This document shows, in pieces, positions 18,789 through 63,883 of a stretch of DNA of 64,000 bases (position 1 is the stretch's first letter; each line of letters opens with the position of its first letter). A program made the translations under genes and the position numbers. The DNA comes from Buxus sempervirens (Eukaryota > Streptophyta > Magnoliopsida > Buxales > Buxaceae): contig OX387190.1 of NCBI GenBank assembly GCA_947561395.2, forward strand, positions 22,624,858-22,688,857, given 5' to 3'. The notes below the pieces were generated by a model. It was given only the letters and a program-made list of their open reading frames with translations, was not told the origin of the DNA and searched no databases.

Positions 18789-20419
18789 TGTGAGACATGG
18801 AAAATCAATCTAGTAACTTCCTTTCATCACACGGGATTTGAGAAAAAGGAGGAGTCCCCACCATTCAATTTTTAGGTGTGAATGGACAAAAAAAATCATC
18901 AAATGAAATAAAAAAAAGGCAAAACTAGAGTAAAAATAACTCTACTTTAAAATAAAAATCCAGAGATGGGTAAGGGGATTAGATTATGAATAGGGGAAAG
19001 TGTTAGGCACCCCTATTCATCCACACAAGGTAGTTGCCAAGAGTTGTTTATGCTATAAAAAATGCTTGCTAATAAAAATCAAAACAAAAGTAAAAGGAAA
19101 AAAGAATGTATGGCTTTTTTCCATGTGAATGATCCAATTAATTATGGATCCTTCTTATGAAAACAAAAGCCATTTCTTGGGCTTCATGATTGACTGAAAT
19201 CAAGATATAGAAAACAAATCTAAAGTAAAAACTTCAAAAATCTGACTTTAAGTTAAATCCTTGAAATCTAGGAATAATAAAAAAATATTATTTTTACAAA
19301 ATATTGAAGAATTGAATCTGAACAATCTAGGGCATAGATTTAACTTATATTTCTCATTAATAAAAAAATCTAAACAAAATACACCCACGTTGATGAAAAA
19401 CATCAAAAGGGGAGAGCTTAGACCGTAGGGTTTTCTCTCAAAAACAAAAAATAACTCAAAAACCACCTCATGAAACCCTAGAGATTACTAGAAGGCTTCT
19501 GATCCCAGATCTACCTTATGGACAATGGCAAATCTAAGATCTTAGCCCAAATGACTAAAAACATAAAAAAACATAAAAGGGAGAAAACAATGTGAAAAAT
19601 CGAAATATATGAGGAAAATGAGATCTAATGCTATGAACAGCATAGATCTATAGTATTCCTCCATATTTCATCAATTAATCATCATACAATCCAAACAAAA
19701 CATTACAACTACACAGTTCTAAGATTACAATGTATGGGGGTCTGCCCTATGGATCCAAATGTCTCCCTTTCCCCTAGTTCTTTCATCATGTTTTACAGCT
19801 AGAGAGTAGTCTTGAGGTACTTGGAAGTTGGTTTGGGTAACAACCATACATAGGCCTTACTCTACAGAAGAAAGGAGAAGACAGAATAATTCTAGAATTA
19901 AAAGTAAAGAAAAGAAAAGAAGAGAAGAGACATACCTGGATTTCTGAAAGTAGAGAGGTAGGGGTTCCTTTCTTCACTTGGAGCTCTTCAATCTCCACTT
20001 TCTGGCCATTTGCTTGAGGGGAGGCCCTCTATTTATAGGCAAGAATTAGGGCAAACTCAAGGGAATGGAGCCCTAATGGTAGACACAAAAATGTGTCTAG
20101 AACCCTCCAACTTAACCCCAAATTATGGACTTGGAAGAATATGGTTAATTTCAGAGGTTAAATTTGGGAATCTCCACTTCTTAGACAGAGGTAAAATAGT
20201 AAAAAGTGAACTCTTGGGATTTTCCGATTTGGAGCAAAACATTAGTATCCGACAAAATAGGTCGGATACAAACATAAATGTGTATCCGAAATCTATTTTC
20301 GGATACAAAGAGATTAACCTTTATCCGAAATTTGATTTTGGTCACAAAAGAAAGACTTTTTTTTAATGATTTCGGCCAATTATTCAATCTTTTATGCAGT
20401 GTAATTTGGGGTGTCTACA
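18789..20419 (-). repeat. 3' LTR of the second element (family 1)
   Basis: On the minus strand it runs from TGTAGACACCCC at 20419 to ...CCATGTCTCACA at 18789, 1631 bp. It is related to 44599-47378 and 61987-63796 (shared: GAGATGGGTAAGGGGATTAG, GGTGTTAGGCACCC, GAGCTCCAAG). The TATA box CTATAAATAG is on the minus strand near 20030-20040. A splice-donor-like CAG|GTATGT follows at 19936/19935. A palindrome array lies at 20245-20345. Flanks are AGG on the left and a purine-rich tract on the right, with no target duplication, so it is not a solo LTR. Confidence 0.85.
20245..20345. repeat. Array of 25-bp palindromes in LTR U3
   Basis: Units 20245-20269 (GTATCCGAC, 7-nt loop, GTCGGATAC), 20282-20306 (GTATCCGAAA, 5-nt loop, TTTCGGATAC) and a degenerate 20321-20345. 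Starts are 37 and 39 bp apart. Confidence 0.85.
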
Positions 20420-20436
20420 ACTGCCCCTCTTTGCTG
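20420..20436 (-). other. Polypurine tract next to the 3' LTR
   Basis: The minus strand reads AGCAAAGAGGGGCAGT directly before the LTR start TGTAGACACC, the expected place and composition for the plus-strand primer of an LTR element. This places the internal region to the right. Confidence 0.75.
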
Positions 20437-20713
20437 GAATTGCAAAACAATGAGTAGCAAAGATTAGACAAACCCAAATTGCACTCTTTCAACCATGATT
20501 TGCCTTGTTCAATTTAATTTTGCAAAACAATTTTGGGTGAAGATTTGCCAAGAAAGCCCTAACTTTAAGGGGGGCATTTCTCCAAGCTGTCTTAAATCCC
20601 ACTGAGCTCTCGTAGCTATGAGGTGGATTTTAAGACCAAAATATAAGATTTTTGAAAAAAAATGATTTTGCAGCAAACCATCAAAATTGAGTGAATATTC
20701 CCTTTGACCAACA

Positions 20714-20834
20714 GTATATACTATTTTTTTTTCTTTGTTTTTATTTTTTCTCTTTCTTTTTCTTTTCTCTCTCTTTTTTCCTTTTTCCCATTTTTTCTCT
20801 CTTTTTTTTCTTCTTTTTTTTCTTTTTTTTCTCT
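20714..20834. repeat. Polypyrimidine tract
   Basis: About 120 bp almost entirely of T and C on the plus strand, immediately before the palindromes upstream of the antisense gene at 22053. It may be an expanded polypurine tract of the element on the minus strand. Confidence 0.7.
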
Positions 20835-20911
20835 GTATCTGAAATAGGTGTTCGTATATGCCAACCTCTATTTGTATCCGACATGAATTGTCAAATACAC
20901 CAGGCTATATT
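20835..20911 (+). promoter_or_regulatory. Palindrome pair and TATA-like site upstream of the antisense PMD gene
   Basis: Two 25-bp units at 20835-20859 and 20874-20898, exactly 39 bp apart, are mutated relatives of the LTR palindromes (GTATCTGAA..., GTATCCGAC...). A TATATTA follows about 7 bp after the second. Confidence 0.6.
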
Positions 20912-21259
20912 ACTTGCGCTCGCGACCGCGACCTGCGCTTTTTTTCCTTCTTCTCCGACCGACAAGGGCAAAAACAGATTTCTTCTCCTCCGGCAGTGAC
21001 ACTCGAACTCTTTCTTCTCCAGCGACTTCCCTTAGCTCCGGCGGCTTCTCTTGACTCCGGTAACTCTCTGCTAACTCCGACAACTTCAGACGATCGAGAT
21101 TCATTGCCAAGCCCAAGTTCGGTTTTCGTCAAACCCCCTTTTTTCCTTGCTCCTAGTGAATTTCTCTGAACTCAGGCAATCTCCTCATCATTCAACGACA
21201 TCCTTCAAGCTTCGGATTTCATTTGCTCTCCATTAGTGCTCGAATCAAGGTTCCTCCAG

Positions 21260-22052
21260 GTGAGATTACACTTTGTCATTGCCAATTAGCATCGGTGAGT
21301 AGTAAAATTTTATTTTACTGGCAACCATCTGTGACTACATTGCTTCCCATTTGTGACAATTTCTGATTGATGGTAGAAACAATAACTGAGAGCATTGCAC
21401 TGCCGAAACATGCACATTGCTTCCCATTTGTTTTGAAACAGTAACTGAGAGCATTGAATTGCCTGCCGGTGGTGACTAAATTGCATGATTTTCAGATTGT
21501 ATGCTTCTGATATATTTCAAACTGAATTGCTCATTTTCAGATTTAATTCCAAATACCATGCTGTGATCTGTTCTTCTTCTTGTTTCTTTTTTCTTCTTTT
21601 TTTCCGCAATCTACCTTGACTTTCCAATATACTTTCGATCAAGATGGTGCTTCAACTGCCAGGATCTTTCCATTATTTTCCTTATGACCACCCAAATTTA
21701 CCGTACTTTGGTATGTGAAACAATATTGGTATCCTGGTAGTCTTTGAAGTATGCTTGCAATTCTTGATTTGTATCCTGAAATTCTTTGAGACTGATTGCA
21801 TGCAATTCTTGCTTTGATCATCGATCAACTAGGACCTTTTTATGCAATATTGATCTTTTCACTTTACTTTTGTACTGCATATTTGTTCTGCCTCCCTGAG
21901 TACATCTGCTAATCTTGAAATCACAACAAATTAGGAAAGATTAAGCATTGTAGAGATCTTCAGGATTAGTGGGAATACTTAGGGGTTAAAAACAATTAAA
22001 CACACAATTGTAGTTTGAACAGCAATATAAAACCCTTCCCTGTTGCCTGTAG
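21260..22052 (+). other. Probable 5' UTR intron of the antisense PMD gene
   Basis: CCTCCAG|GTGAGA at 21259/21260 and CCTGTAG|ATG at 22052/22053 bound a 793-bp AT-rich stretch. The preceding 20920-21259 is GC- and CT-rich like a leader. Confidence 0.55.
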
Positions 22053-24997
22053 ATGGCTAGAGGTCGTTCTCGTGTGCGAGAGGAGGTTGATCTAGCTGAT
22101 CAGCCTTCTTCCTCTCGAGCTAGGATTGATTCTGATCAGAGTGCCACCCTATTCGAGCCATTGGATGATTCCAGAGAGAGCTTTGGAGAGGGTTCTGTCG
22201 AGGTAGGCTACTTTTATCTTTCTTCTTCTTTCCCTTCCTCTTCTTTCTCCTTAAACAAACTTTCATCCTTTCTATTTGACTTTAGCCCATTGCGGCTCCT
22301 AGTTGGGGTAGAGGCCGAGGCAGAGAGAGAGGCTATGGTAGAGAGAGAGGCCGTGGTAGAGGCCGTGGCAGAGATGGAGCTTCAGATTAGGCTCAGGAGG
22401 AAATTTCTCCAGACTTCCGCTTAGAGTTCTCCGAGGAGTTGAGGGCGTCTGTCCAGGACACAGAGCTCCTTAGTGGCTTGGATCGCCATCCCTCCATGTG
22501 TGTCAAGGCTAATGTTTCTCTTCCATATCCTCACTCTCATCTGTGAGGCAGTTGGGGGAGGTTTACCGAGCTGGTTCGGACACTATCTCCTGCAATTAGA
22601 CTTGAGTTCAGTTGGTGTCGTTTCGACCACTTCCTCCTCATTCCATCCTTCCGAGCTGACCGCCCTCTTGTCTATGCCATGATGGAGCGATACTTCCTCG
22701 ATACGCAGTCTTTTCATTTGCTAGATGTTGAGCTTGGGATCCGTCCATCTGATTTCGTTATGATCACTGGCATCCCTTTGGTGGGGCGGACTATTGTGAT
22801 GGATCGACCTTCCGATGTGGATATCGGTTCTCTCCTGGGATATGCGGCCTTACCCGACAATGCTTGGGATGGGAGGAGTGGCCAACTTTCTATCAGCTGG
22901 CTGTGTCATAGCCTTATTGATTACTTTGATGGGAGGCATGCGACCGTTACTGGGGAGGACCAGGCCTTTGCACCTATATTTCGGCATATCTTCTTGCTGA
23001 TGCTTGGGAGCTGTTTCTTCCAGGAGGACACGACTGTGGTTAGTCCTATCTTTTTAGATGTCCTGAGAGACTTCCGCCAGACCAGGCAACTGGCATGGGG
23101 TCGGCTCATATATGAGACTAGCCTGGCTGGACTATGTCAAGCCATCCACGGTTTGGTTACTCCGAGAGGAGATGGTGTTAGCTGCCGATTCTTCTGGCAG
23201 ATATTATAGGTACTAAATGCATTTATTTTATTCCAAAGTTTTATCTTTCCGCCCCTGACTGGTTTCTCTTCTGCCAGATATTCATGTACACTTACATGAC
23301 CTATTTTCGTCCATCCCCGGTGCTTGACGCTGATGAGTTCCCCGTAGCCATACGGTGGCCTGTGCTTGATAGGGATGCAGATAGGAGTCAGCCCCATTCG
23401 GCTTGGGCTCACTTGGACCGTGCCCGACAATCCGATGTAAAATTCCTTGACCCTTTATCTCTTGTCTCTTTCTTTCATGCTTTGTTTATTCCTGACATTC
23501 TTCTTCTTCTTTGCAGCTCTTGTTGGCCCGCTTTGAGGATGTGGATGATGGGGTTGCTCGTGAGCTTATAGTACACGACGCTTTTGATCGAGATCTCCGA
23601 CGCCAACCCTACCAGTGCTTCCTTGGGAGGCTTGGTAAGGTTATGTATCTAGGCGAGCGATTGTACTATTAGCACACTGGCGTACCTCGTATTCCAGTTC
23701 CTTCTCCTCCTATTGGCCCTACCATCCTCCTATCTAGGTTTGATGTTGACCAGTTTGATCAGTGGGAGGATGCAGAGGGACTCACGGTTGTCGGGGACTA
23801 TGATGAGTTGATCGGGAGGGTATCCATCGGGTGCTTGATGGATCGGCCTACTTGGGTTGGAGTGACCGAGATTGGCAGGATCTACATTCGAGTTCATGAT
23901 GACACTGTAAGTTTATTCTTGCTTCTTCCATCTTATTTCCTTCAATTCAGTATTTGTGACTTTAATCCCCTTTTTCATTGGCAGGTAGAGGAGTTGAATG
24001 CTCTGAGGGACCGGTTTCAGAGCCAGCGAGTAGCTGTTGATGATTTGATTGCTGAGCATGATGCGACAGTGGCTCAGAGAGATGCTCGGATCAGAGAGCT
24101 GGAGGCTCTGGTCGTCGAGAGGGACAGCAGCATTTTGGTCTTGGAGGTTGAGCTTGGGACTAGACAGGTATCTAGTTTTCTCTATCTTTTATTTCTCCTT
24201 TCTGTATTTCCATGCCATTCTGACAGGGATTGCTTTGAATTTTGCAGGCTTATCCACGGCGTCCAACTCATGCCCATGATCAGGTATGCTTCCTTTAGAA
24301 TTTTGGTATCCTTCATATCTGCAAGTTGATACTGATTCTCATCCATTTGTGATTTTCAGGAGTTCGACCATCCAGGCCCTTCTACTTCCGCGGGTGTTGC
24401 TTTGGGTACTGATGATGTCCCTGCTAAGCCAGTCCTTCCAGTTCATGTTTCATCTCCAGCTGCTGATCCCGATGACAACCCGGCCACTGGTCCTGCTTCC
24501 ACCTCTTCTCCTGCTCTTGCTTCTACAGCAGATCCTGCCGGTGCATCTCCTCCTGTGATCGTTCCTGATCCTACGGTTCCTGGTACTAATATCTCTGGTA
24601 ATCTTGCTTTAATTTCATTTCTTTAATTGATCATGGTGTTTTAGCTTCTGACTTTACTTCTATTAAACTAGATGTCCCTGTTCCTGCTACTACGGAGGCT
24701 TCTGGAGTTGTGGGAACTGTGGCTACATTGACTGAGGATCCAGAGGCGTCCGTTCCTCTGACTGAGCCTGCTCCTGTTGAGCCTGACGCCTTTACATCGG
24801 ATTCTGCTCCTATGAGCCCATTCCCTGACAACTCGGCTTACAACTATACGTACCAAATTCAGTCCATTCTGGGCCGGGGGGAGCGCCACGCTACTGAGTG
24901 TATTCTGACACATGTCTTTGGGCGCTGGCGACCCCGAGGCAGAGGCCATAGCAAAGGACGCAGCAGAGGACGTGGGGATGGACCTGCAGAGGGATAG
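22053..24997 (+). pseudogene. Plant mobile domain (MAIN/MAIL-like) gene, antisense within the retroelement
   Basis: Eight coding exons: 22053-22202, 22286-23209, 23278-23436, 23517-23906, 23985-24167, 24248-24283, 24360-24597, 24672-24997. All junctions are GT/AG and join in phase. The order is a basic N-terminus, an RG-rich segment (WGRGRGRERGYGRERG), then a segment resembling the plant mobile domain (LDVELGIRPSDFVMITGIPLVG, SWLCHSLIDYF, FLLMLGSCFF, AWGRLIYETSL). A short coiled coil follows (exon 5), then a Pro/Ala/Ser-rich tail and a C-terminal RG patch. Four in-frame stops remain: TAG 22388, TGA 22544, TAG 23207, TAG 23670. Each is one C-to-T change from CAG or CGA. PMD proteins occur both as host silencing factors and as retroelement passengers; this orientation and position point to a Tat-type antisense gene. 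Introns are retained although the gene sits inside an LTR element. Confidence 0.72.
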
Positions 24998-25192
24998 TAG
25001 ATTAGGACATCTTGTATACTGACAGTATCGCTGTAAAAAAATGAATTTTATATATATAAAGAAACTTCACATTCATTGCTCCTCATTATCTTGTTCTTTT
25101 CTTTCCATTTTTTTACAGTTATGAAATGTACACTGGTAATACAGGGAATTTTTTCGAATTTTTCATGCTTTTCTCTCTTTTTTTTTCTTTAT

Positions 25193-25390
25193 GTATCTGA
25201 AATATCAAGTCGGCAAATGCAACAACTATTTGTATCCGAAATAAAATTTCGTATACATAAAATATTTCTTGTATCAGAAATAAGATTTCGGATACATATA
25301 ATAGCATTTGTATCCGAAATATCTTGTCGGATATGAAGAACATTATTTGTATCCGAGCTGAGATTTCGGATACATTTAAGCAGTATAAAA
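25193..25390 (+). promoter_or_regulatory. Five-unit 39-bp palindrome array plus TATA box of the second antisense gene
   Basis: Units of 25 bp start at 25193, 25232, 25271, 25310 and 25349, each exactly 39 bp apart (GTATCCGAA...TTCGGATAC type). TATAAAA follows at 25384-25390, 11 bp after the last unit. The next gene starts at 25503. Confidence 0.75.
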
Positions 25391-25502
25391 AATAGCAGTA
25401 TCTTGGGATGTGCATCATTGTGACGGCTTTTTGAGTTTAGAAAACTCCCTTTCTTCGTTTTTTCTCCCTCCTCTTGCTTCTAACAAGTTCCATTCATCCC
25501 TA

Positions 25503-27239
25503 ATGGCCTCCGGATCATCTTCCGTCCTGTTTTCTTTTGCCACTGAAGCCTCCCCTGCAAAACAACCGTTTAGATCCAAACCCCCCCAATCTCACTAGAT
25601 ACAACATTGCAGATTAATTCTACAATAGATGGGTTAACTCCATGACCCTTGAAGAGGGCATCAAGTGGGATTCTACCAACTTGGGTCACATCCTGCTCAT
25701 CCATACCATTCCTTTTAAATGGGAAATCATTGAGGCCTTGATTGGACACTGGGAACCTCAGTTAAATCTCTTTAGATTTGGTGATAAGGAGATGACCCCT
25801 ACAGTTGAGGAAATTGAATGACCCCTACAGTTGAGGAGATTGAAACGATCCTTAGCTTGAGGATCTCAGAGAAAGTGGTGAACCCGCCCCTTAAGCCTAT
25901 CTACAAAAAGGAAGCCTTCACTTTTTTGGGCATAGGGAAGAAGGACCTCGGGGACTCTGACACACTGTTGACCCTGTCCAAGACTTTTTTGACTGAAAAA
26001 CTCTTAAGGGGTGAGGATCAGCAGGCCCAGTTTAATGCCTTGTCTCATATAGTGGTGAACCAGCTACTCTTTCCAATGGGTGACGACGAGGTTGACTTGG
26101 CTCTCATTTTAGTCAGATGCTAGGTTAAGGAGCGAACGAGGTTAGCCCCTATGATCTTGGCAGAGATGTATCAAGTTCTGACTGACTGCTATTTCAGGAA
26201 GAAGAAACGCTTTCTTGCTTGTGCCCCCATCCTACAGGTAAAATCTCTTCCTCTTTTTCTTTTTTTTTTTTCTTTTTTCCTTTTTTTTTCTTTTTACAAC
26301 TTTCTTGTGAAGCTAGAATAAAATGAAATACTCCTTCTTTTTGCAGCTTTGGTTACTTGACCATTTGAGTCAGATCGAGATGGTTGATTGACGCTTTTCC
26401 ACTAGATTAAAAGTTCTTGTTTTGATGAGTAACAAGGGATGTCCTAACATCCAAGGTGACAAGCAAGGTTGTTTCACTTTCTTGGGCACTTTACAGGATG
26501 ATCAGGTGAGATGGCCTGTCACTTATCAGCCAAACCCCGAGACAGTGATCAGTTTTAGAGACATGAACTTCATGGTTCTAGTAGGCTTGAGATTTGTTGT
26601 TCTCTATCTTCCTTTGAGGGTCCTTCAACACCTTGGAGGGACTCAGGGGATCATGATCCCAGATGGGTATGCAGACTTCTTGGGGCCACTTACACCAGCC
26701 ACCGTGGGGCTGTGTGCTCGGTTGATGAAGGAATGGTCCTATGTGCGCTTCATGAGGGGTCCAGTCTTTTCTGAGTCACATGTGAAGGAGTACCTTTTTT
26801 GGATCAGGGAGCAGGTTCAGAGTCGTGCCCCAGTATCAGAGGATCCTCTTGCTGTTCTTGCACCCACTTATGAAGACATACTGGTTTCTGAGAGGGCATC
26901 TCACAAACGGCTTCAACAAATTTGGGTACAAGAGGCCCAAGAACTTAGGATACGAGGCCTTGATTTGGAGAGGCAAATTGAAGAGCAGGTGTCTTCCCGC
27001 ATTGCTTTGGAAAAGCAACTTGAGGAGTAGAGGCTGGCTCGCCGTTTTGAAGTCCGAGTGATACGGCAAAAGTACCAGGATGCCCTAGTAGCCTTAGAGG
27101 TATGAGGATCAAGCAAGCACTTTCAGATGAGGTCATCTCCTTTTTGAGAGATCCAGATGCAGAGGAAGCTTCTAGGATTATTGCGGCTCAGGCGGCTTGG
27201 ATTCGGGAGCTTGAGGAGTGGCTAGGGGATAGGGACTAG
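25503..27239 (+). pseudogene. Second antisense gene, DUF7745/PMD-like retroelement passenger
   Basis: Exon 1 is 25503-26237 and exon 2 is 26347-27239 (CAG|GTAAAA, TTGCAG|C). The product begins MASGSSSVLFSF. The body has WEIIEALIGHWEP, DKEMTPTVEEIETILSLRI and PLYLWLL-like LWLLDHLSQIE, which recall plant proteins annotated as DUF7745 or PMD-like that accompany Tat-type elements. A Glu/Gln-rich coiled coil (about 26900-27230) ends it. It is broken by a frame change at a C-run near 25580, a stop at 25610, a 26-bp tandem duplication (25792-25817 and 25818-25843), and stops at 26121, about 26388 and 27028. I am confident of the gene structure but less so of the family name. Confidence 0.6.
25792..25843 (+). 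repeat. 26-bp tandem duplication in the second antisense gene
   Basis: ATGACCCCTACAGTTGAGG starts both copies. They differ at one base (GAAATTGA and GAGATTGA). Being 26 bp, it shifts the frame. Confidence 0.9.
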
Positions 27240-28185
27240 CTCCTTTTATTGCATTTTTCATGCCTTTGTTCAAAAGCAAACTCTAATAGTGGAAAGACAA
27301 AGGATTTAATTCAAAAATAGATTTTATACTATTGGCCTCAGAATTCTCAGATGTTTGTAAAAACAAAGATTTTATGAAAATTATTTGATTTCTCATCACT
27401 GGCCAAAATATAATAACTTTTTATTTTATTTTTGGAGTTTGGTCCAAAACACTTAATCACGCATAATTAAAGGAATTAAAATCAAGTTGAATAATGAAAA
27501 GGATGGTTCAAGCAATAGGGAGATATCAGATCTGTCCACCGTAGGACCTTTAGAGTCATCCCCAAATGACTTTTCTTCCAGAATTGACTGCATTATTCCC
27601 AATTTGTTCCATCTCTTGTTCTTATACTGATTTCACTTCAAGCTTGGACTACATGATCAACTCAACCCCTGATTCCATTTTTTTTCTTCTTTTTTTTTTC
27701 TTTTTCTTGCTAATGTTGCCCCTAGCGCCAGTTACGGTTTTCATTACGGCCGGCTTTTGCATTCCGTCATCACCAATCTTTACTCTAAACATTGACAGAA
27801 TACACTAAAATCATTGAGGGCTTATAAATAGGATGAAATGAAGGCTAGGCTCGGTTTATGAAAGAAAAGGTGTTAAAGGCTCAAAATTTTTTAATCATGA
27901 AAATAGGTCAATTGGACTTACAGTCATGATGAATATGGTCCCCATTCCCCAAACTTTTTTCATTTCATTTCTTTTTGCACTTGGCTTTCATTTGCTACTA
28001 TTCCTTGCTTTTTTTTTTCTTTTTTTCTTTTTGTTTTTGCCCCAATTTGCTTTGCCCCAGTATGAAACTGTAAGTACCAGTTTAGGTTTATCAAATAAAC
28101 GAACATGCTCGACTTGGCTAGACTAGGATTAAAATTTTTGGGAAATAAAGAAAATGGCCTCAGATCATTTCCTAGTAATATTCAA
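27240..28185. other. Spacer between antisense gene and integrase
   Basis: AT-rich sequence with poly-T runs at 27680-27710 and 28008-28035. No gene seen. It separates two convergent transcription units, so it would hold their 3' ends. Confidence 0.5.
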
Positions 28186-29319
28186 TCAAGGAAAATACCT
28201 TTTTATTACATTAGAGTTAATTGTCTCAGAAAGATATTTTCCATCCATTTTTGTTAAGATGAGTCCACCCCCTAATAGGACCTTCTTGACAACATAAGGC
28301 CCTTCCCAATTTGGCTTAAACTTCCCACGAGGGTCTTCCAAAAATGGTAAAATTTTCTTCAAAACCAAATTTCCTTCTTGGACAGTTTTGAGCTTCACCT
28401 TCTTATTGTAAGCCCTAGCCATTCTCTTCTGATACAATTGGCCATGACAAAGCGCCTTCAAACGCTTTTCCTCTATCAGATTGAGTTGATCATGTCTTGA
28501 TTGTATCCATTCAGCTTTTTCCAATTCTGCTTCCATTAGCACTATCAGTGATGGGATTTCAACTTCAACGGGTAAAACTACTTCCATTTCATAAACTAGG
28601 GAATACGGAGTTGCCCCAGTAGAAGTCCAGATTGAGGTTCTGTAGGCATGCAGAGCAAGTGGTAGCCTTTCATGCCAATCTCTGTAACTTACTACCATTT
28701 TTTGAATTATCTTTTTTATATTCTTATTTTTTGCTTCTACTACCCCATTCATCTTTGGTCTGTACGGGCTGACTTGTGATGGGTGATTTGAAACTACTTA
28801 CATAACTTCTTCATATCCTTGTTCTTAATATTTGAAGTGTTGTCTGATACTATAGCATTTGGCAAACCATAGCGACAAATGATGTTGTGCTTCAAAATTT
28901 TGAGAACGTGGTTACTAATGATATTTGCATACGAAGCTGCTTCAACCCACTTGGTGAACTAATCAATTGCTACTAGAATGAATCTGTACCCATTTGACGC
29001 CTTTGGGGAAATCATGCCAATGACGTCTATGCCCCACATGGGAAAGGCCATGGTGAGGTCATGTTGTGCAGTTCACTTGGTGGTGCATGCTTGTTATCCA
29101 AATATATCTGTCACAGATGAGACCTCTTAACATGTACACAGCAATCGTGCTCCATTGTTGACCAATGGTATCCTAATCGCAGAATCTTCTTTGCAAGCAT
29201 GTGCTCATTCATATGGGGTCTACAGACTCCTCCATGTACAGTCTCAATTAATCTTTCTGATTCAGCCTTGGCAATACATCTGAGTAGAATATCATTATGT
29301 GATCTCTTGTATAGCTACC
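28186..29319 (-). pseudogene. Integrase, C-terminal two-thirds
   Basis: The minus strand has an open 28752-28186 segment: NGVVEAKNKNIKKII, LPLALHAYRTSIWTSTGATPY and a GPY-like end (KFKPNWEGPYVVKKVL). To its right, up to 29319, the same domain continues with stops and frame breaks (VSDN, the H2C2-like SHNDILLRC region). Integrase joins element cDNA to host DNA. The N-terminal part is cut from the RNase H by the solo LTR at 29320-31368. Confidence 0.85.
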
Positions 29320-31368
29320 TGTGCGCACCTCGGGCGCGTTGAAAACGCGTGTTACATGTTTTATGGAGTCGCCACTACTTGAAATGGTGCAGGTAGACAC
29401 CTTGTTGACTTTTGGTCTGAACCAGTGATTCCGGATAAGTGACCCGATTACAACCCAGGGAAGTCCTTGAACACCCTGGGTTGCCCCACTGAAATGGGTT
29501 TCCTTAAATTAGTTGGATAATATTTGGGTTGTTTTACTATTATTTAATTCTTTTTTTTTATCTTTTATATATTTTTATTTATTCTTTTTATGATCACATG
29601 TATACAAATATTGGAGGAATGAAGGTTGCTATACTACATCATGTATAATACATATATAAAAAATCCAAAATAAAGAAATCTAAATCAAACATTTTATCAT
29701 GGAGCAATGTACTTGGTTACTTCAAAATATATATTTTTTCTTTTTCTTTTTATTTTTAATTTATTTATTTTATCTTATATTTCTCATATATACAAGAGAT
29801 TAGAGGAATTAACATGCTCCATTATCCCAATCATTTTTTATTGTTTTCTTTTTTTTTATGATAATTTATTTGCACAAAGCATGTGTAAAAAAATTCAATC
29901 ATATTTAATCATTGAAGATTACACTTTATTTTTCCATTTTTTAAGGATTTGGATAAGATGAGAAGTGTTATAAGAAATTAATAAAAGTTACAAATGTTTA
30001 AGCCTATGATTAAAATTAAATATGGTAGTTAAGCCTATTATCTAAGAATTAAGAAAAGAATAAAAAAAAATCTGGTTAGTATAGTTAAATATGTTAATTA
30101 AGCATATTATCTAAAAATAATTAAGAAATTAAGAAAAGAATTAAAGAAATAACATGAAAGAAATAAAGAAATAATAAATGAAACCTAGGGGTTCTTAAAA
30201 AAGGGTTTTAAAGAAGGACTAAACATAAAATACAATAAGTTCTTTTATAAATCCTTGAACTTTTCAGAATAGCAAATTAGGCATGATAGCTTATCAAATT
30301 CTCAAAATTCCACTCCCAAAAACAATCGTTCAACAGGAATTTTTTTTTTTGGTCATAACCGTGACATGCTTTATTTAACAACACTAACATGAAATAACAC
30401 ATTCGGCCATAACAATAACATGCTTTGTATTATTTTCACTTTGACAATTTAACAATACTAAAAAAATACTTGATTAAAGAATCAACAAATAAAATAAAAT
30501 AAAAACCTGGTATGGAGTTCATTTCCTAGAAACTGGTGAGCACAACTCCAGATGTTTCCCCCCTTTTACTTGCACAAACTTCTTCCACCTTTTTTTTCTC
30601 TTCCTTTTTTGCTTTAAAGAACTCTCTCTTTTTTTTTCTCCACACCTTTGCTCCCAACTTCAAGCCTTTTTATAGAGGATTCCCACCCCTTCAAATTATT
30701 AACCCCAAACCTTTCTTCTTCCTCTCTTACACCCTTAACTCTTTCTATTCCTCTTCTTAAACAACTAACCCTTCCTCTTCCTCTCTTAAACAACTTAACT
30801 CTTCCTCTCTTAAACACCCTCATTCAATTAGGTTTGGTCAAAGTCCATTTTGTCCCACATTTTTATTAGGCTTATGTATTTTTTTAAGCTTTGTTTCAAT
30901 ATCTCAAGAGAATATGAGTTGGACCAATTTGTCCAACTCATTTCTCTTTGTTTATTTTTTTTATTATTTTTTTAATCTTAAACTTTTATTAACTTTGTTA
31001 TTTATTTGCATAAGAAACACCATTAGGAAACTTACTTATTTACTAAAACAACCCCACAAAATTTTAATTTATCATTGGTTACATGGCAGCCACCATGGCG
31101 TACACGTGGTTGCCATGTGTCATCCAATTTAGGTTTTGTAGAAATCCCCAAACTACACTTTACTTATTTTATTCATACCTTAGCCGTTTGACATCCAATT
31201 TGAGCATGGTTTGGTGCATCGGAATCGGCTCAGAATTCTCTTTATTATGTGCTTGTTATTTCAAAAAGGCGGGTCCACTATAAAAACCTCAATTTGTGTG
31301 CCCACATATATGCCAGTTTAAGATATGCTTCTTAGGCAATTTTATAGTACAAAAATGGGGTGCTGACA
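29320..31368 (-). mobile_element. Solo LTR (family A) inserted in pol, target duplicate CTACC
   Basis: CTACC at 29315-29319 and 31369-31373 flanks a 2049-bp unit. On the minus strand the unit begins TGTCAGCACCCC and ends ...GGTGCGCACA. CTATAAAAAGGC on the minus strand near 30660-30675 is its TATA box. GAGTCGCCAC is at 29366-29375. Pol motifs on both sides belong to one element, so the insertion is younger than that element. Confidence 0.88.
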
Positions 31369-31373
31369 CTACC

Positions 31374-32432
31374 CACCACTCAGTAGGAATTGACTTGCTA
31401 ATCTTTGTATTGCCCTTTTCTCAGTAGAGGTAGCATTTTCTGGAAGACTTCGATCATTCAAGAATTTCTTAATATCATTAAACCATGGTATTTCTTCTCC
31501 TGGTATTCCTTCTAGAACAAGACAATAAGCCAGTTCATCTCTGACTTCAATTTCCAGTGGTTTGATATCTACTTCTTTTGGAATATTGATCATTGAAGCC
31601 AATGTCGCCAAAGCATCTACAAATTGAATCTTGGCCCTTGGCATATAGCTAAAGGAAATTCGAGTAAATTTGGTGCTTATTTCTTCCAAATACTGGTGAT
31701 ATGGGATCAATTTGTGATCTTTGGTTTTCCTTTCACCGATTGTTTGGAAGATGATAAGACTCGAATCTCTGTATACGTCAAGTTCCTCTACCTCATGATC
31801 TAAAGTAGCTTGCAACCCGATTATACATGCCTCATACTCTGCTATGTTGTTTGTGCATTGAAATCTCAGCTTTACTGGGATTGGGATATGTGAACCATCC
31901 GGTTTGACCAAAACTGCCCCAATTCCATTTCCATTCATGTTTGCGGGCCCGTTGAAGTACATCTGCCAAGAGCTTTCATTTTTCTCTTCTTTAGTAAATA
32001 ACACTGCCTTATCCGGAAAGTTTGTCTTTAAAGGTTGGTAGTTTGGCAAGGGGTGTTTAGCTAAGTGATCAGCAATTGCTTGACCTTTAATTGCCTTTTG
32101 AGTGACATACTTGAGGTCAAATTCAGAAAGCAAGAGCTGCCATTTCACCGTTCTACCAGTTAATGCCGGTTTCTCAAATAGGTACTTCAGAGGGTCCATT
32201 CAGGATATCAATAATGTGGAATGACTGAGGAAGTAATGTCTCAGCCTTTAAGTTGCCCACACTAAAGCATAACAGGTCTTTTCTAAAAGAGAATATTTGC
32301 CTTCATATTCTGTGAACTTTTTACTCAGATAGTAAATCACCCTTTCTTTTCTGCCTGTCTCATCATACTGTCCCAAGACACCCCATTGATGTTTCCAAAA
32401 CTTACAAGTACAGAATCAGTGGTCTTCCTGGA
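31374..32432 (-). pseudogene. RNase H and second RNase H of the second element
   Basis: The minus strand has EKPALTGRTVKWQLLLSEFD, YVTQKAIKGQAIADHLAKHP, then a second RNase H-like domain (MYFNGPANMNGNGIGAVLV, TNNIAEYEACIIGLQ, VYRDSSLI, DALATLASM). The first catalytic Asp of this second domain is Asn (YFNG for the usual YFDG). The adjacent 32200-32432 part (RT connection region) has stops. The double RNase H supports Tat-lineage placement. Confidence 0.85.
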
Positions 32433-34876: not shown

Positions 34877-37661
34877 GTTGGTGGCACTAGCACAGGTGGA
34901 ATCAGCAAATATTCCTTTATCTTGTCAAAGGCCCGTTGGCAATCATTATTCCAGACCGTTGGATTATTCTTTCTTAGAAGCTTAAAAATCGGTTCACAGG
35001 TGGCAGTGAGCTGTGCTATGAACCTACTGATGTATTGAATTCTTCCAAGAAAACCCTAATTTCCTTCTCTGTTTTGGGTGATGGCATTTCAATAATCACC
35101 TTTGCTTTAGCAGGATCAATCTCAATTCCTCTTTTCCTCACTATAAAACCCAACAATTTTCCTAATGTAGCCCCAAAGACAATTTGTTGGGTTAAGCCAT
35201 AAACTGTACTTCCTGAGTCGGTCAAACACCTTCTTGAAGTTGGTTAAATGGTCTTCTTCCCTACATGATTTGGCAATCATATCGTCCACATAGATCTCCA
35301 TTTCCATGTGGATCATATCATGGAATAGTGCTGTCATGGCTCGCTGATAGGTTGCCCCGGCATTCTTGAGCCCAAATGGTATGACAGTGTAGTGGAAGGT
35401 ACCCTAAGGTGTAATGAAAGCTGTTTTTTCTTGATCTTCCTTTGCCATCTTGATTTCATTATACCCCGAGAAACCTCCATGAATGAGAACAGGCTATGTG
35501 TAGCAGTATTATCAACTAGAATGTCGATATGTAGAAGTGGAAAATCATCCTTTGGGCTTGCCTTGTTTAGATCTCTGTAGTCCATGCACATCTTGACTTT
35601 CCCATCTTTCTTTGGTACCAACATTATATTTGCGAGCCACTCGGGGTACATGGAGACTACCAAAAGTCCCTCTTGGAATTGCTTGACCACTTCATCTTTG
35701 ACCTTCTGTGTCCAGTCTGGTTTCAATCTTCTCAACTTTTGCTTGACCGGCTTAACCCCTGGTAGAATTGGTAGCCTATGCAATACCATGTTAGTATCCA
35801 ATCCCGGTATATCCCGATACGACCATGCAAACACGTCTTCATAATCTGCCAAGAATTGTGAAATTTCTTCACGCTGCACATCAGACATGCATGCCCCACC
35901 CTTTACTATTTTTGGGTCATCTTTGGTCCCTAGATTTATTGATATGGTCTCCTCAATATTAGGTTGAACACCCTTTTCATGATGCTCCAATTGATATGCG
36001 ATTTCTTTAAGAGGGTCGTCTTCTTCGACTTCGGTCTCTTCTTCAATCCCCATTAGGTCAAAGTCGAGCTCGAGGTCGAAGTCATATTCAACTTGATTTA
36101 ATTCTGTTTGCTTATATGGTTTGGAACTTTTTGAAAAATTTAAATTTTCTAGAAAAAATAGAAAATCTTTTTGGTTTTTTTGAGAGCCTTCAGTAAAAGC
36201 TTTCCCTGAAGATGAAGGCTCATTAAGACCTTCAGAAAAAGGGCATTCCACTAATGAAGTTTTTTTTTGGGAATCCGCGTCTGTTTGCCAATCAAACGCT
36301 GCGTCTGTTTGCCAATCAAACGCCGCCTCAAAGGTAAGGGGAGTTTCCTCCCAATTATTCATAATAAATTCTTTTGGAGCAGGTGAAATGGTGCAAGCCT
36401 GCTCCTCAAGCTCAGAATCCAATGCTATCATCACCGGGTGAGTTGTACTGCCCTTTTCTTCCACGGGGCCCAATCCAGATATAACCTCATCTGGAATCCT
36501 CACTGCTGCCCAATCAATGAAAGGCAGCTCCTTCTTTTCTTTATTTCGTTCCCCTTCAGTCATGACGAAGAAAGCTCCAATGTCTTCAGTGAAATCCTGA
36601 TGCTTTTCTGGTTGTGGCTTAGGCCTGCCCATTGCCTTAAGTGCAGAAGGTGGGTTGTAGAGTTGCAGGATTGGGACATATGGCTTTTGAAAAGGATTGA
36701 TGTTATCGTATGGAGGCCTGGACTGATTTGTGAGAGGAGATAGTTGGATCATGCAAAAGGGTTTCGGAAAAGTTTCCTTTAAATAAGGGAATTTTATTTC
36801 TATGTTTCCTTCTTCTGTCTGCTTTTGCCTTCTCCATTTCCCTGTTTTCATTCCCAATCCTGCCTTAGGGACTAGTTTCTTCACCCTTATCGGCTCCAAC
36901 CTCCCTTGCAAATTAATTCCCAAACCTTTCCCTGGGTAGAAGTAATATTTTAACACTTTCTCCACCATCCTTTCAGCATTGATCAACTTACCCTTCTTAT
37001 CCTCATATCCTCCAGGTATGAAATTGACAGTTTCTAACTGGAAAGAGTGAAATGCCATTTTGTCTGCAGTCATTTCAATGTTAATGTAGGGTACGTCAGG
37101 AGACACCATGGGAGGAACCAAATTCTCGACCAGGACCGTTATCACCTTTTGCCATCGGATGTATTTTACTCTCTAGTGGAGGGTAGATAGTATGGCCCTA
37201 GCCGTATGAGTCCACGGCCTTCCTAGGAGTAGGTTGAAGGCCATCGGTATATCCATCACTTCGAATGTGATATTGAATATATATGGTCCAATAGTGACCG
37301 ACAGTTTAACCTTCCCTAGGGAGTGTGTTTTGGAACTATCAAAAGCTCTTATGATCCTCCCATTCTGCTTGATTTTATTCTGCTCCAAACCGAGTTTAAC
37401 AAATTTTATCAACGGGCAGACATTCAGAGCCAACCCGTTATCTATCAAAACCCGCGCCACCATGCAACCCTTACAAAGCACAGTTATGTGCAAAGGATCA
37501 ACATGGTGGTACCCAGCTGGGCTAATTTCGGTTTCAGAAAAGGATATGACATTATGAGACAAAATTTGCCCAACCATCTTGCTTAGTTGGTCTGGTTCAA
37601 TATTTTTAGGCACATGTGTGCCCTGAAGTACCCTTAACAGAGAATCTCTATGCTTTTCCAA
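34877..37661 (-). pseudogene. Protease and reverse transcriptase of the second element
   Basis: On the minus strand the protease is at 37661-37173 (VLIDNGLALNVCP, NLLLGRPW). TAG at 37175-37173 is a single-codon break and the same frame continues to about 35475 with an acidic spacer and the start of RT (MVLVPKKDGKVKMCMDYRDLN). A one-base shift within SFM-DGFSGYN then changes frame. RT continues in broken frames with YVDD near 35290 and QIVFGATLGKLLGF, DPAKAKVIIEMPSP up to the solo LTR. This copy cannot make an active enzyme. Confidence 0.85.
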
Positions 37662-44121: not shown

Positions 44122-46665
44122 ATGGGGTAATGGAGTTGTGATTTTGGGGCTTTTTTATTTTTTTATTTTTTCCTTGGGTTCTGGACTTAATTCTCTGTAT
44201 TTTTCTGGACCTCGAATTTGGGTAGAAAGCTGATGGAGCTTCAATTTTATTCTCTCACTTATTTTTATCCCTTACCATACTTGGTAAGTTTTTGCTCTTC
44301 CTCTCTTTCTCTCCCTCTCTTAATTTGTTTCTGTAGAATTTTCCCTTTTCCGGTTACGACTCAGAAAAAATTTCAATCTTGATTGGTTTTTGTTTCTTGC
44401 TTGTGTATAGATGTAGCTTTATTTTAATTTTCTTGTGTGGAGCAATTACAGGGTTTTTTTTACTCGCTTGAAAGCATGATTTTAATCTCTTGTTTGGGTT
44501 TTTATGTTTACATGTTCGAGTTCTAACCTTTTCCACGCTTAACATAATGGGTGATGGAGGAGTAGCTAAATCAGGATTCCAAATAACCTTGTTATACTTG
44601 TGAGACATGGGAAAAAATCACCCGACGATGATCATCCCTCCGTCAGCACACGGGCTCAACGCAAGATTGGGAGAGTCCCCACCATTCAGAATTTTGAGGT
44701 GAGAATGAACACCAAAATCATCAAAAATAAGCAAAAAGGGCTAAAAGGCATATTCTAGGGTAAAAATAACCCTACTTGAAAATCAAATCCAGAGATGGGT
44801 AAGGGGATTAGATTATGAACGGGGGAAGGTGTTAGGCACCCCCATTCACCCACACAAGGTGGTTGCCAAGTGTTATTCATGCTAAAAGAAAATAGAAAGC
44901 TTGCTAAAAAATCATGAAAACCTTGAAAAAGGACAAATATATGATATCTTCACATGAAAATCCAAATGAATTCCAGATTTTCTTTTATGTTAATATCACT
45001 TCTGGAATATCACAAAAAGATGGAAATCACAGCAAAAGTTGCACAAAACCAAGTTGAGGCAAATCCGGGAAATTTGGTAAAAAGTAAGGCCATTTCTCCT
45101 AAAGTTAATCAAATCCAATTTTAAATTAAATCAAACCAAATCCATTTGAAAGATTAGGGTAAACAATAGTCTCATGCAAAATTTCAATTAATTCCGATTG
45201 AAATCCTAAGAGTTATGGCTCTTTTAAAGTTGCTGCCGGAGAAAATCAAAAGTAGCAAGTAGGCAACTTTGGAAAATCACCTAGAAACATCTACTGCATA
45301 GAAATCCGTGAAATTTGGTTTCAATGAAGTCTGTATGGCCATATTTCAAAAGAAACTAGCCTCATACAAAAATTCATTCGGATGTGCCTTGGGTGACTTC
45401 CCGAACAGGCCCCAAGGATCACAGATTGACCCAGAAAAGTGCTGTTGAGCAGTTCTGAGTAAATCTGCTCTCCACGACACAATTTAAATAAAACAATTAT
45501 GAAATCAATTGGATTTAAAAATAGACTCATAAAGGAGTGCTCAGAAACAAAAATCACTCGAATCGGATTTAAAACGAACACATGGCGCTCCGTCTAAGTG
45601 ACAAGTTCTGTATTTGAACCTGAACTGTCCAATCAACTTCGACAGAGAGGTATCAAAAATCCGCTTGATAGAAATTAATGAAATTTGGTGGACATAAACT
45701 AGAAAGCCTCACCTTTCCCATGGTTCTAGAATCACTCCAAAATTCATCCGGATGATGAAGTTATGAGTGTCCGAAGTCGGGTTACAGTTGCTGTCAAGTT
45801 AAGCCCTTTTTAGAGAAAAACAATGCAAAACTGTGACAAAGCGTGTGCAATTCGTGCAAGATGAATACAAAACCTTTTAAAAACATTCCAGAATTGATTG
45901 AGGCCATTTATTTGAGATTTATCACAATGAAAGTAATAAATCCCCAAATGTGAGCCTATCCCACCAAAATAATGCTATGTATGTGCAAGTGTGAAAAACC
46001 ATTCAAGATCAATATAACAACATAGCATGCATACATATTCATCAAAATAAGGTTCTAAAACAACCTAGGGTTCCGTTCCATTATCGTTTCCCTTTGTTCT
46101 CTCTCCCCGTTGAACACGGTTCTTCAAGATAATCACGGGGTACTTTGAATATGAAACGGTTTTCAATCATTCAAAAGGCTTTATGCTACATAGGTTCTAG
46201 CACTAGGGTCAATCTCCAGTCTCGTTTCTCCTAGATCCCGCCTTCACGTTTTACGGCTAGGGGGAGTCTCGAGATACTTTGAGCCGGGGAAGGATTTTCA
46301 CACACATAGAAGACCTTATTCTACAGAAAGGTAGAAGAAGAGATCTAGATCTAAGAAGGTAAATACAGAAATTAAAAAGAGGTTTGAGGCTTACCTGGGT
46401 TCTGGAAGCACTTCCGCAGCGGTTTCCCTCTTCTCTTGGAGCTCTTCTTGGCGAGAATTCAAGGCAAAAGTTAATGGCCATTTGCTTAAGGAGGAGCCTC
46501 CTATTTTTAGGCAAAGGCTAGGGTTGTTGGTAGACACAACTTAATGTCTAGAACCCACCAACCTTAACTCTAAGGCTGTTTCCGAGATTTCCCCTCATTT
46601 AATGAGGGATATGATGGTAAAAAGTGATTTCTCTCGGAAAACCCTAATTTTTGAGCAAAACTTAT

Positions 46666-46807
46666 GTATCCGGCATATCAGGCCGGATACAAAAGGGTCT
46701 TAATGTATCTGGCATATAATGCCGGATATACTAAGGATTGCTTGTATCCGGTATGTTCCACCGGATACAAAGGAAAATACTTGTATCCGGCCTGAGTTGC
46801 CGGATAC
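46666..46807. repeat. Four-unit 39-bp palindrome array in solo LTR
   Basis: 25-bp units start at 46666, 46705, 46744 and 46783, each exactly 39 bp apart, of the form GTATCCGG...CCGGATAC with different 7-9 nt centres. Confidence 0.9.
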
Positions 46808-46856
46808 AAGGAAAAAAGCCTTTTTTCCGAATTTTAACACAGGCAATACTTCTTTA

Positions 46857-46923
46857 TATGTAATATCGTTTAAGTAAATGTCCTCGTATTTTTTAATCTC
46901 CATTTACTTAAGATATTACATGT
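46857..46923. other. Conserved long stem-loop in LTR U3
   Basis: Arms ATRTGTAATATCGTTTAAGT and its near-complement close on a 20-nt loop (TCCTCGTATTTTTTAATCTC). The loop and inner arms are identical to 63884-63951. Confidence 0.8.
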
Positions 46924-47383
46924 AAATAAGCAAACACCCCCCCATTTGAATCCATTAAAAATAGTTCCAGACCCAAATTCCAAGTGAATAAAAAGTCAAC
47001 TTTCCAGTTCTAAGCAAAATTCCGATTTTTCAGGTCTGGAAAAAAAGTTCAATATGTTAAAACCAAGGTATTCGTCAAGATTTAAAATCTCAAAAAATTC
47101 TTTTATGCAATAACATGGCTAAAAACCTGATTACCGGGAAAAATTATCTTGAAATTTGGCTTTAAAAAATATTTCATTTTCTGGGGTCAAAAGTCAACAA
47201 AATTCAACCGGAAAAAGTTTGACTTTGCACAAAAGATTGAATTCGGGCCTTTTCCTTTACGGTTTTGGATTCAAATGGGTTAAGTATCTCAAACCCAATG
47301 CAAAGAATTGAAAATTCCAATAAAATATTTCTCTCCTTCAAGATTTATCAAAAATCGTGCAATTTTGGGGTGTCTACAATACT

Positions 47384-61864: not shown

Positions 61865-61986
61865 GACCGCATATACAATGCGGTCATGTTCAGTTCACAT
61901 TATATATGCAGACAAGACCAAACCGCATACTATATGCGGTTTTGTCCAAACCACATACCATATGCGGTTTTGTCCAAACTGCATAC
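61865..61986. repeat. 28-bp palindrome array in the outer LTR
   Basis: Units of about 19-21 bp (ACCGCATACTATATGCGGT type) at 61866, 61894, 61922, 61950 and 61978, each 28 bp apart. The fifth is split by the solo LTR 61987-63796 and continues at 63797. Confidence 0.85.
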
Positions 61987-63796
61987 TGTGAGACATGGGA
62001 AAAAATCAAAAATCCTTTTGACTTCCTCAATCATCACACGGGATTGAATAAAACAAAGAGTCGCCACCATTCAATTTAGGTGTGAATGGACACCAAAATA
62101 TTAAATAAGCACAAAAGGCAATTTTAGGGTAAAAATAACCCTCCTAAAAAAAACGACCAGAGATGGGTAAGGGGATTAGGTTATGAACAGGGGAAGGTGT
62201 TAGGCACCCCTATTCATCCACACAAGGTGGTTGCTAGGTATTGTTCATGTTAAATTAAAGGAAAAAGGCTTGCTATAAAAATCATGAAAAATCACAAAAA
62301 AGACAAAAATTGTATGGTTTTTTCATACGAATAGCCTGATTGATCCAGAACTTTCAAATATGATCATACCATTCCTAGGGTTTCATGATCAAAATAATAT
62401 TGAGATAAATCAAATAAAATCAATTTTAAGTGAAAAATCCAAAAATCTGGCTTCAAGTCAAATTCTAGAAATCTAGAAAAATATAATTTTTATAAAATAT
62501 TTCAAAATTGAACCTGAATAATCCAAGACATGGTAAAGCCCATATTTCACATTAAATCTGAAAATCAAAACCAAAAATACCCACGTTGATGAAAAACATC
62601 AAAAGGGGAGAACTGAGACCGTAGGGTCTTCTCTCAATAATGAAAAAGGATTCAAAAACAACATAATGAAACCCTAGAATTTATTTTTAGGCTTCTGGAT
62701 CCAGATCTACCATATTGATCATGATAAATCCAGGATCCTAGCCTAAAATCACAAAAATCACGAAAACAGTGCTGTAGGTGCAAAAGTGGTGAAAATCCAA
62801 ATTTTGGAAAATAGTGGGGATCTCATGCTATAAACATCATGGATTCATGTATTCATTCAGATATATCATAAAAACCATTAAACATGATCAGGATATTTAA
62901 AGCAGCCACATCTCACAGATTTGAGCACATGGGGGTCTACCCTACGGATCCACCTGTTCTCTTTTCCCCTAGCTCTCTCTTTACGTTTTATGGCTAGAGA
63001 GGATTCTTGAGGTACTTGGAGATAGGTTAGGTTATACAAACACAATCACAGGCTTTATTCTAGAAAAAAGGAGAAAAATAGATATGGGGTTCTATTCTAG
63101 GGATCCACCTGTTCTCTTTTCCCCTAGCTCTCTCTTCACGTTTTACAGCTAGAGAGACTCTTGAGGTACTTGGAGGCAAGTTTAGGAATACTAGATACAA
63201 AAGATGGCCTTATTCTACAGCAATAGAGATGATCCTATTATTTCTAGAATTGAAGACAGAAAATAAAAGGGAAAAGGGACTTACTTGGATTGAGCAAGCA
63301 AAGTAGCAGGGGTTCCTCTTCTTCTCTTGGAGCTCTTGAGTCTTCAAAATTTCGTGGCCCTCAGCTTGAGAATCTCACCTCTATTTATAGGCAAGCACAT
63401 GGGCAAGGCTGGTCCAGAAGGATATATCCTGATCCTTAAGATAGAGTGAAAGACAGAGATAATGCCCATCCATAGCCAACCAAGGTGGTTTCAGCGAATA
63501 AAAGACGTAATTCGCTCATTTAAAGATATATTGGACTTAAGATAAAGCTCGGAAATCGAGAGAAGAATAAAACTCGCACGAGTCTTTAGTGACCGTAAAT
63601 GAATTACGGTCCAACGGTGACCGTATTTTCAATACGGGCGCGCCTGACCATAGAGAGATCTCGGGCGCGACCGGCCCGTGAATGCAATACGGGCAAAGCT
63701 TGCTTAGTCAGATTTTATACTTTTTTGACCTGTTTCAAATCCCAATTAATATTTTCAATTATTTTCTCATTTTTAGTGCAATTTGGGGTGTCTACA
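61987..63796 (-). mobile_element. Solo LTR (family 1) inserted in a palindrome array, target duplicate CATAC
   Basis: CATAC at 61982-61986 and 63797-63801 flanks 1810 bp running TGTAGACACCCC... to ...CCCATGTCTCACA on the minus strand. TATA CTATAAATAGAGG lies near 63386 and donor-like CAA|GTAAGT at 63285/63284. A segment of about 90 bp is duplicated (62937-63030 and 63085-63180). A 21-bp palindrome array is at 63591-63694. Confidence 0.9.
63591..63694. repeat. 21-bp palindrome array in solo LTR
   Basis: Units start at 63591 (GACCGTAAATGAATTACGGTC without its last base here), 63619, 63646 and 63674, spaced 28, 27 and 28 bp. Confidence 0.8.
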
Positions 63797-63883
63797 CATA
63801 CCATATGCGGACAAGGCCAAAATGGCCTGTCTGCACAGATTCTGCATAGCCTTGACCGTTACCAGCACAGGCAATACTTATTT

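Follow-up and report, generated by a model that had tools for sequence, protein, structure and literature searches.

A giant retrotransposon of Buxus sempervirens raises the question of why one and the same short palindrome, repeated at a fixed distance, should stand in a long terminal repeat (LTR) and again in front of two genes that are read in the opposite direction. The window, i.e., the whole stretch of DNA that was analysed, comprises 64,000 nucleotides (assembly GCA_947561395.2, contig OX387190.1, positions 22,624,858 to 22,688,857). An earlier note had proposed that one DNA-binding factor coordinates the three promoters, or else that one promoter module was copied. These readings are weighed here on evidence that comes from one genome and from its sequence alone.

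Judged by its sequence features, the element in the window is a Tat-type Ty3/gypsy retrotransposon on the minus strand, of which the 3' part is present; it carries two antisense genes, one for a Plant mobile domain (PMD) protein and one for a DUF7745 protein (Table 1). The end of pol is followed by a 7.8-kb stretch with the two plus-strand genes and then by the 3' LTR, so that antisense ORFs lie between pol and 3' LTR (20419 to 28186), which is a trait of the Tat lineage. RNase H (RVT_3, PF13456) was recognised by Pfam at 31372-32199 on the minus strand (59.2 bits, in a scan of ORFs outside the RT region) and is a candidate for the second, archaeal-type RNase H of the Tat lineage. The integrase-like ORF at 28186-28797, also on the minus strand, was recognised by eye only, without a Pfam match, and may be the integrase that Tat elements have downstream of RT/RNase H. 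The first antisense gene encodes, in order, an RG-rich N-terminus, the PMD, a coiled coil and an RG-rich C-terminus, the RG-rich ends and the coiled coil being read by eye; its PMD (PF10536, piece 22547-23206) scored 34.8 bits, just under the Pfam cut-off of 34.9. The DUF7745 pieces of the second gene scored 21.1, 16.6 and 14.3 bits against a curated cut-off of 26, and this copy is interrupted by stops, one of which coincides with a 26-bp tandem duplication at 25792-25844. TRP28 (PF04195), the antisense product of the Retand lineage, gave no match in those antisense ORF pieces that the Pfam scan covered. Three related LTRs in the window (18789-20419, 44599-47378 and 61987-63796) have the termini TGTGAGACATGG and GTGTCTACA in common, and no close copy of the first one that could serve as its 5' partner was found within the window. 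Several other features of the window may be mentioned. An ORF on the pol strand (35337-37172) carries a G-patch domain according to Pfam, a domain reported as atypical for Gypsy elements (PMC9289625). O-methyltransferase exons at 53951-55412 apparently belong to a host gene between elements. At 48893-50229, a 22-bp unit forms two arrays that are inverted relative to each other and contain about 21 and 30 copies, and a 418-bp stretch (56888-57305) matches its own reverse complement at 87%.

Table 1. Position of the element's parts, promoters and palindrome arrays in the window.
Feature	Position	Strand	Remarks
3' LTR, 1,631 bp	18789..20419	-	plus-strand ends TGTGAGACATGG / GTGTCTACA
LTR promoter TATA box (TATAAATA)	20030..20037	-	read by eye
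U3 array, 3 units, A-type arms	20245..20345		unit starts 20245, 20282, 20321; spacing 37 then 39 bp
Array before antisense PMD gene, 2 units	20835..20898		unit starts 20835, 20874; 39 bp
TATA-like box (CTATATTA), antisense PMD gene	20905..20912	+	read by eye
Antisense gene 1 (PMD), several ORF pieces	22053..24994	+	
Array before second antisense gene, 5 units	25193..25373		unit starts 25193, 25232, 25271, 25310, 25349; 39 bp each
TATA box (TATAAAAAA), second antisense gene	25384..25392	+	read by eye
Antisense gene 2 (DUF7745, PF24924)	25504..27239	+	Pfam pieces below curated cut-off; coiled coil by eye
pol end: integrase-like ORF and RNase H	28186..32199	-	
Related solo LTR with G-type array	44599..47378	-	target-site duplication ATACT
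G-type array, 4 units (GTATCCGG N9 CCGGATAC)	46666..46807		39 bp; inside solo LTR 44599-47378
Different palindrome array, ACCGCATA NNN TATGCGGT	61896..61986		28-bp period; another LTR
Third palindrome type, GACCGTAA..TTACGGTC	63591..63638		nested solo LTR 61987-63796

The array unit is a 25-bp palindrome, GTATCCGA N9 TCGGATAC, found in the U3 region of the LTR and again immediately in front of the TATA box of each antisense gene. The palindromes were indeed present at the three places named in the earlier note, and its placing of the antisense arrays directly before a TATA-like and a TATA box was borne out. In the LTR sense, about 207 bp separate the U3 array from the minus-strand TATA box downstream of it, as read by eye. 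The spacing of exactly 39 bp that had been described holds for both antisense arrays and for the second LTR pair, but the first LTR pair is spaced by 37 bp; 2 bp are missing from the window LTR at this point, where the aligned copies have 39. Units are not all intact, the one at 20321-20345 having 3 of 8 right-arm positions mismatched and those at 20835, 20874 and 25193 being imperfect palindromes, and the loops all differ among the ten units. When the arms were scored over 14 positions, the window yielded 16 array members, namely these ten, the four of the G-type array and a weak pair at 3187/3228 (spacing 41), which is probably due to chance. Forty Markov-shuffled windows contained 0.4 members on average and 4 at most.

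The number of such palindromes in the host genome (676 Mb, dead copies included) is far beyond chance, as exact-pattern counts were compared with those of the reversed patterns. The 25-bp form GTATCCG N11 CGGATAC occurs 30,553 times (control 0), and the same palindrome made one base longer only 31 times (control 1). These 26-bp palindromes are often symmetric through their centre, as in GTATCCGGCATTATAATGCCGGATAC, which the 25-bp ones are not. Among the arm types, the G type (GTATCCGG N9 CCGGATAC, CCGG/CCGG) accounts for 20,444 exact copies (control 0), the A type seen in the three window arrays (CCGA/TCGG) for 6,516 (control 0) and a third type, TGATCCGG N9 CCGGATCA, for 2,256 (control 1). 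Two palindromes are joined by exactly 14 bases, which makes the 39-bp period, in 16,882 cases (control 0), against 60 for linkers of 15-20 bases combined (control 5), the count being confined to these linker lengths. Spacings of 37 and 38 bp are present in a few fetched loci. Both the length and the period of the palindrome are thus rigid.

The two arms change in a paired manner. The window and 26 fetched loci together provide 98 unique array units, after removal of duplicate units and of L001, L024 and L063, which are the same place as the window. In these, position 8 pairs with position 18 in 90 units where 52.4 are expected, and 9 with 17 in 66 where 35.0 are expected, while the pairs 10/16 to 12/14 show no excess. 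Genome-wide, at most 3,593 of the 30,553 palindromes carry asymmetric or other letters at position 8/18 (the total minus the two symmetric types), where simple arithmetic on the counts predicts about 12,000 asymmetric ones for independent arms; both this count and that of the 98 units still contain the relatedness of copies. Since the excess is found at 8/18 and 9/17 and is absent further inside, the half-site would measure about 9 bp and leave the inner 7 bp free. Asymmetric units do occur (in L022, L034 and L059), and arm types are mixed in L034. A higher conservation of arms than of loops within the A family was looked for as well, and this test failed, the arms being conserved at 0.90 and the loops at 0.963; CpG decay may explain the lower value of the arms.

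Within a given element, the arrays agree in their arm type. The LTR and the gene-2 promoter carry the same type in all eight elements judged: A in the window, at C14:18.64 Mb and at C15:6.80 Mb, and G in five elements on C1 (3.40 to 4.54 Mb), four of which were judged from palindrome places alone, on the basis of like arrays about 20 kb apart. One of these four (C1:4251036) has a PMD match at the expected place. Another like pair (C1:3385845 / 3395382, 9.5 kb apart) was left out of the count because there is no exact palindrome between its two members. In two of the five C1 elements (C1:3683520 and C1:4520290), a further array place is seen inward of the 5' LTR array, at a distance of about 3.7 kb, which may mean that there is a fourth array in the 5' leader. 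The LTR and the PMD promoter agree likewise in seven of seven cases, with A-type arms in the window, L003, L028, L054 and L056 and G-type arms in L013 and L020. Element interior was not found beside six further A-type LTR loci (L002, L004-L008), where agreement can therefore not be judged, and eight loci with LTR-type arrays (L009, L015, L017, L022, L034, L059, L060, L062) gave neither a PMD-promoter array nor a post-LTR match. L007 and L062 have a second array of another arm type about 1.2-1.5 kb from their A-type LTR array; these second arrays may be neighbouring insertions, since interior-like sequence was looked for around them and not found. It had been suggested that relatives lacking the arrays at the antisense promoters, or arms drifting without covariation, would speak against a shared role. 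In the same genome, all seven relatives that hold post-LTR sequence keep the PMD-promoter array, and the arms of the copies change on both sides together.

Homologous promoters were also compared between families. The PMD promoter was taken from four A-arm and two G-arm loci, the gene-2 promoter from three A-arm loci and a single G-arm locus, and these sequences align from the palindromes as far as the TATA-like box. In these promoters (without the initial one of the five A gene-2 units, and without a linker of L019 that is one base shorter), the arm core of 7+7 bp is identical in 347 of 392 comparisons, position 8/18 in 0 of 56 and position 9/17 in 14 of 56, the inner loop (10-16) in 102 of 196 and the linkers in 75 of 196. 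Similar values were obtained for the LTR, from three of the four A-arm four-unit loci (L003, L005 and L056, not L054) and four hand-picked G-arm LTRs: arm core 602/672, position 8/18 0/96, position 9/17 30/96, inner loop 165/336 and linkers 162/462. Over the three promoters, in pairs that are not mutually independent, the arm core is 89-90% identical and the linkers 35-38%, while position 8/18 is identical in none of 152 comparisons, on both arms. Linkers have therefore diverged nearly to randomness, arm cores and lengths have been kept, and every dyad compared has changed on both sides. Agreement at the LTR comes partly from selection, because the families are recognised by LTR arm type; no such selection was applied to the PMD promoters or to three of the four L019 gene-2 units. 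The linkers do not represent the region as a whole, since other noncoding sequence just after the LTR is less diverged (about 79% identical). The motif letters change together across a family's arrays, as VANC-like self-recognition would have it, and neither recent copying nor RNA hairpins would fit this concerted two-sided change as well as the sequence-specific binding of one dimeric factor does.

The arrays are probably binding sites for one factor. The symmetric site, its fixed length and period, its position relative to the TATA boxes and the concerted two-sided change point to a dimeric DNA-binding factor. Our favoured reading, which we consider reasonably probable, is that one such dimer acts at the LTR and at both antisense promoters, with the element's own PMD or DUF7745 product as the leading candidate; that the element itself encodes the factor is, taken separately, a tentative proposal. 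A two-fold symmetric, sequence-specific dimer would bind the LTR (gag-pol) promoter and both antisense promoters, through two 9-bp half-sites GTATCCGRN facing each other within 25 bp, and the 39-bp repeat would hold the bound dimers in a fixed phase. The likeliest factor would be an antisense product of the element (the PMD protein, the DUF7745 protein or both together), and the outcome an autoregulated switch or anti-silencing loop over the genomic RNA and over the factor's own synthesis. Protein binding, dimerisation, the identity of the factor and activation rather than repression are what we infer from these features.

Several observations bear on this candidate. Stop-free PMD exons of the A family exist at four loci besides the window exon. 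In the 16 of 30 PMD loci that could be used (660-bp, stop-free), the median dN/dS of the exon is 0.19 within A, 0.07 within G and 0.08 between A and G, the latter at a dS of about 1.8, near saturation. These low values indicate purifying selection on the PMD exon, by which the protein is kept, at least in spreading lineages. When the PMD exon was modelled, the confidence (a mean pLDDT of 41) was too low for any DNA-binding fold to be recognised, and a PDB sequence search with the window PMD piece gave no match up to E 1. The antisense proteins are nonetheless placed first for three reasons. The site changes with the family. The Arabidopsis PMD proteins MAIN and MAIL1 are required to express genes with a common promoter motif (PMC7156037, PMC9899485). 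The antisense proteins of related elements have been suggested to bind DNA (PMC11963269). The parallel with MAIN/MAIL1 is that PMD proteins are tied to a promoter motif; MAIN and MAIL1 are host proteins, and their "DOWN" motif (MORC1 promoter, CATGCAGTTT), which they may or may not bind directly, is a different sequence and not a dyad (PMC7156037, PMC9899485).

Other palindromes are found in related LTRs of the window. The LTR with the 28-bp-period array is split by the nested solo LTR 61987-63796 (target-site duplication CATAC), its remainder lying at 63797-63830. This type has 81 exact 19-bp copies, and its array matches with up to 2 mismatches number 1,461 for the forward strand and 1,366 for the reverse strand (control 0). 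For the GACCGTAA palindrome type of the nested solo LTR, 39 other scored copies are 90-93% identical. An 801-bp piece (L075) near one LTR of the CCGCATA family, which may lie outside the element, contained no CCGCATA, GTATCCGA or GTATCCGG half-site with up to 1 mismatch, and at 4 of 12 fetched loci (L064, L066, L067 and L072), all with short flanks only, no GACCGTAA palindromes were found outside the LTR. As other LTRs of the window have different palindrome types, these LTRs may in general carry palindrome arrays in U3, with letters that turn over.

This turnover bears on the strongest alternative, in which the arrays are read by a host transcription factor, a dimeric MYB-related or GARP-type protein, the element having captured host control of its three promoters. 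The cis evidence, i.e., the covariation and the A-versus-G promoter comparison, is identical for such a factor, one host protein could tolerate the single base-pair difference between A and G arms, and the half-site CGGATAC presumably resembles GATA(C)-type sites. A concerted switch of half-sites between families of one genome would, however, be easier with a factor that diverges along with the family, and the quite different palindromes of other related LTRs make the site look like one that turns over. A host factor is unlikely on balance, though worth keeping in mind.

The second reading of the earlier note was that of a copied module, which would have reached three places and stayed similar there through gene conversion or slippage, with no selection for binding. 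As one design is common to the three arrays, ancient copying is likely to some extent, and an ancient origin of this kind is possible for them; whole units are gained or lost, with 3 or 4 in the aligned LTRs, and the 39-bp tandem is seen by TRF. However, loops and linkers would travel along with the copies, and between families the linkers differ almost like random sequence while the arm cores do not. Homogenisation by recent copying is disfavoured because the linkers and most loops are unlike between families, and as a full explanation a copied module seems improbable. The other half of that proposal, one factor for three promoters, is favoured by the retention of the arrays and by the two-sided change of the arms, the factor itself being deduced.

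The genomic RNA carries all three arrays in its 3' part, that of U3 among them, and they might act there as the stems of RNA hairpins. Paired changes at positions 8 and 9 would suit a stem no less than a DNA dyad, but the arm sequence itself is conserved beyond pairing, the pairing excess is absent at positions 10-12, and the strict 39-bp period and the kept TATA distance have no obvious use in RNA; this makes hairpins quite improbable. Least credible of all is the view of A-type arms as CCGG arms in which CHG-methylation decay has merely turned the outer C into T, which would be expected to yield CCGA/TCGG, since most units of both types retain the inner CpG, which is no less prone to decay, the A family retains stop-free PMD exons, and the A units compared differ from G on both sides.

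A dimeric factor acting at the three promoters, as favoured here, can be set beside known systems. VANDAL elements are DNA transposons, and the Tas gene of foamy viruses is read in sense orientation, with Tas sites that are not known to form palindrome arrays. By analogy, the Buxus element appears to work like VANC/VANDAL and like foamy-virus Tas while being a member of neither. In foamy viruses, one element-encoded activator, Tas, serves the LTR and an internal promoter, and the Buxus element has the same cis sites at its LTR and internal promoters, so far as sequence tells. The VANC anti-silencing proteins of Arabidopsis are encoded by VANDAL itself and bind its own motif arrays (PMC5735166). 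In VANDAL as in Buxus, short family-specific motif arrays lie in noncoding parts of a mobile element, the letters differ between subfamilies (C-type and T-type in VANDAL) and the arrays change by tandem units. The VANDAL motifs described in that text are in the same orientation, without mention of palindromes, whereas the Buxus element is an LTR retrotransposon with rigid 25/39-bp dyads and a putative binding protein. Membership in VANDAL/VANC, in which a MULE-type DNA transposon encodes the VANC protein, was rejected on two grounds, namely that this is an LTR retrotransposon and that Pfam gave PMD and DUF7745 in its antisense pieces.

Closer relatives share part of this design. Antisense genes and tandem repeats have already been described in the 3' region of Tat-type elements, with a function given as unknown in the 2025 Retand survey (PMC11963269). 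Retand also has tandem arrays, and its antisense genes, which are likewise placed between pol and the 3' LTR, have been proposed as DNA-binding regulators; they encode TRP28, unlike the PMD and DUF7745 genes found here, and in the survey "palindrom" and "promoter" appear in the reference list only. The maize Grande gene23 is likewise an antisense gene with its own upstream promoter in the 3' region, and a title cited by PMC7264820 describes the gene23 product as nuclear; unlike in Buxus, no shared array is reported and "palindrom" is absent from the available text of that paper. No report of arrays common to an LTR and antisense promoters was found in the accessible open-licence PMC literature.

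A strict array common to the LTR and to both antisense promoters links the antisense genes with the tandem repeats. In a bolder and rather doubtful extension, the arrays would form a self-addressing code: the antisense PMD and DUF7745 proteins would be dimeric activators or anti-silencers that read family-specific arrays, half-sites and protein would change together, relatives would thereby become independent networks, and the CCGCATA and GACCGTAA palindromes would be further addresses. With tens of thousands of sites in the host genome, such a network may also come to involve host genes that lie near LTRs. If true, retrotransposons would have evolved a VANC-like sequence address with which to regulate or free their own family.
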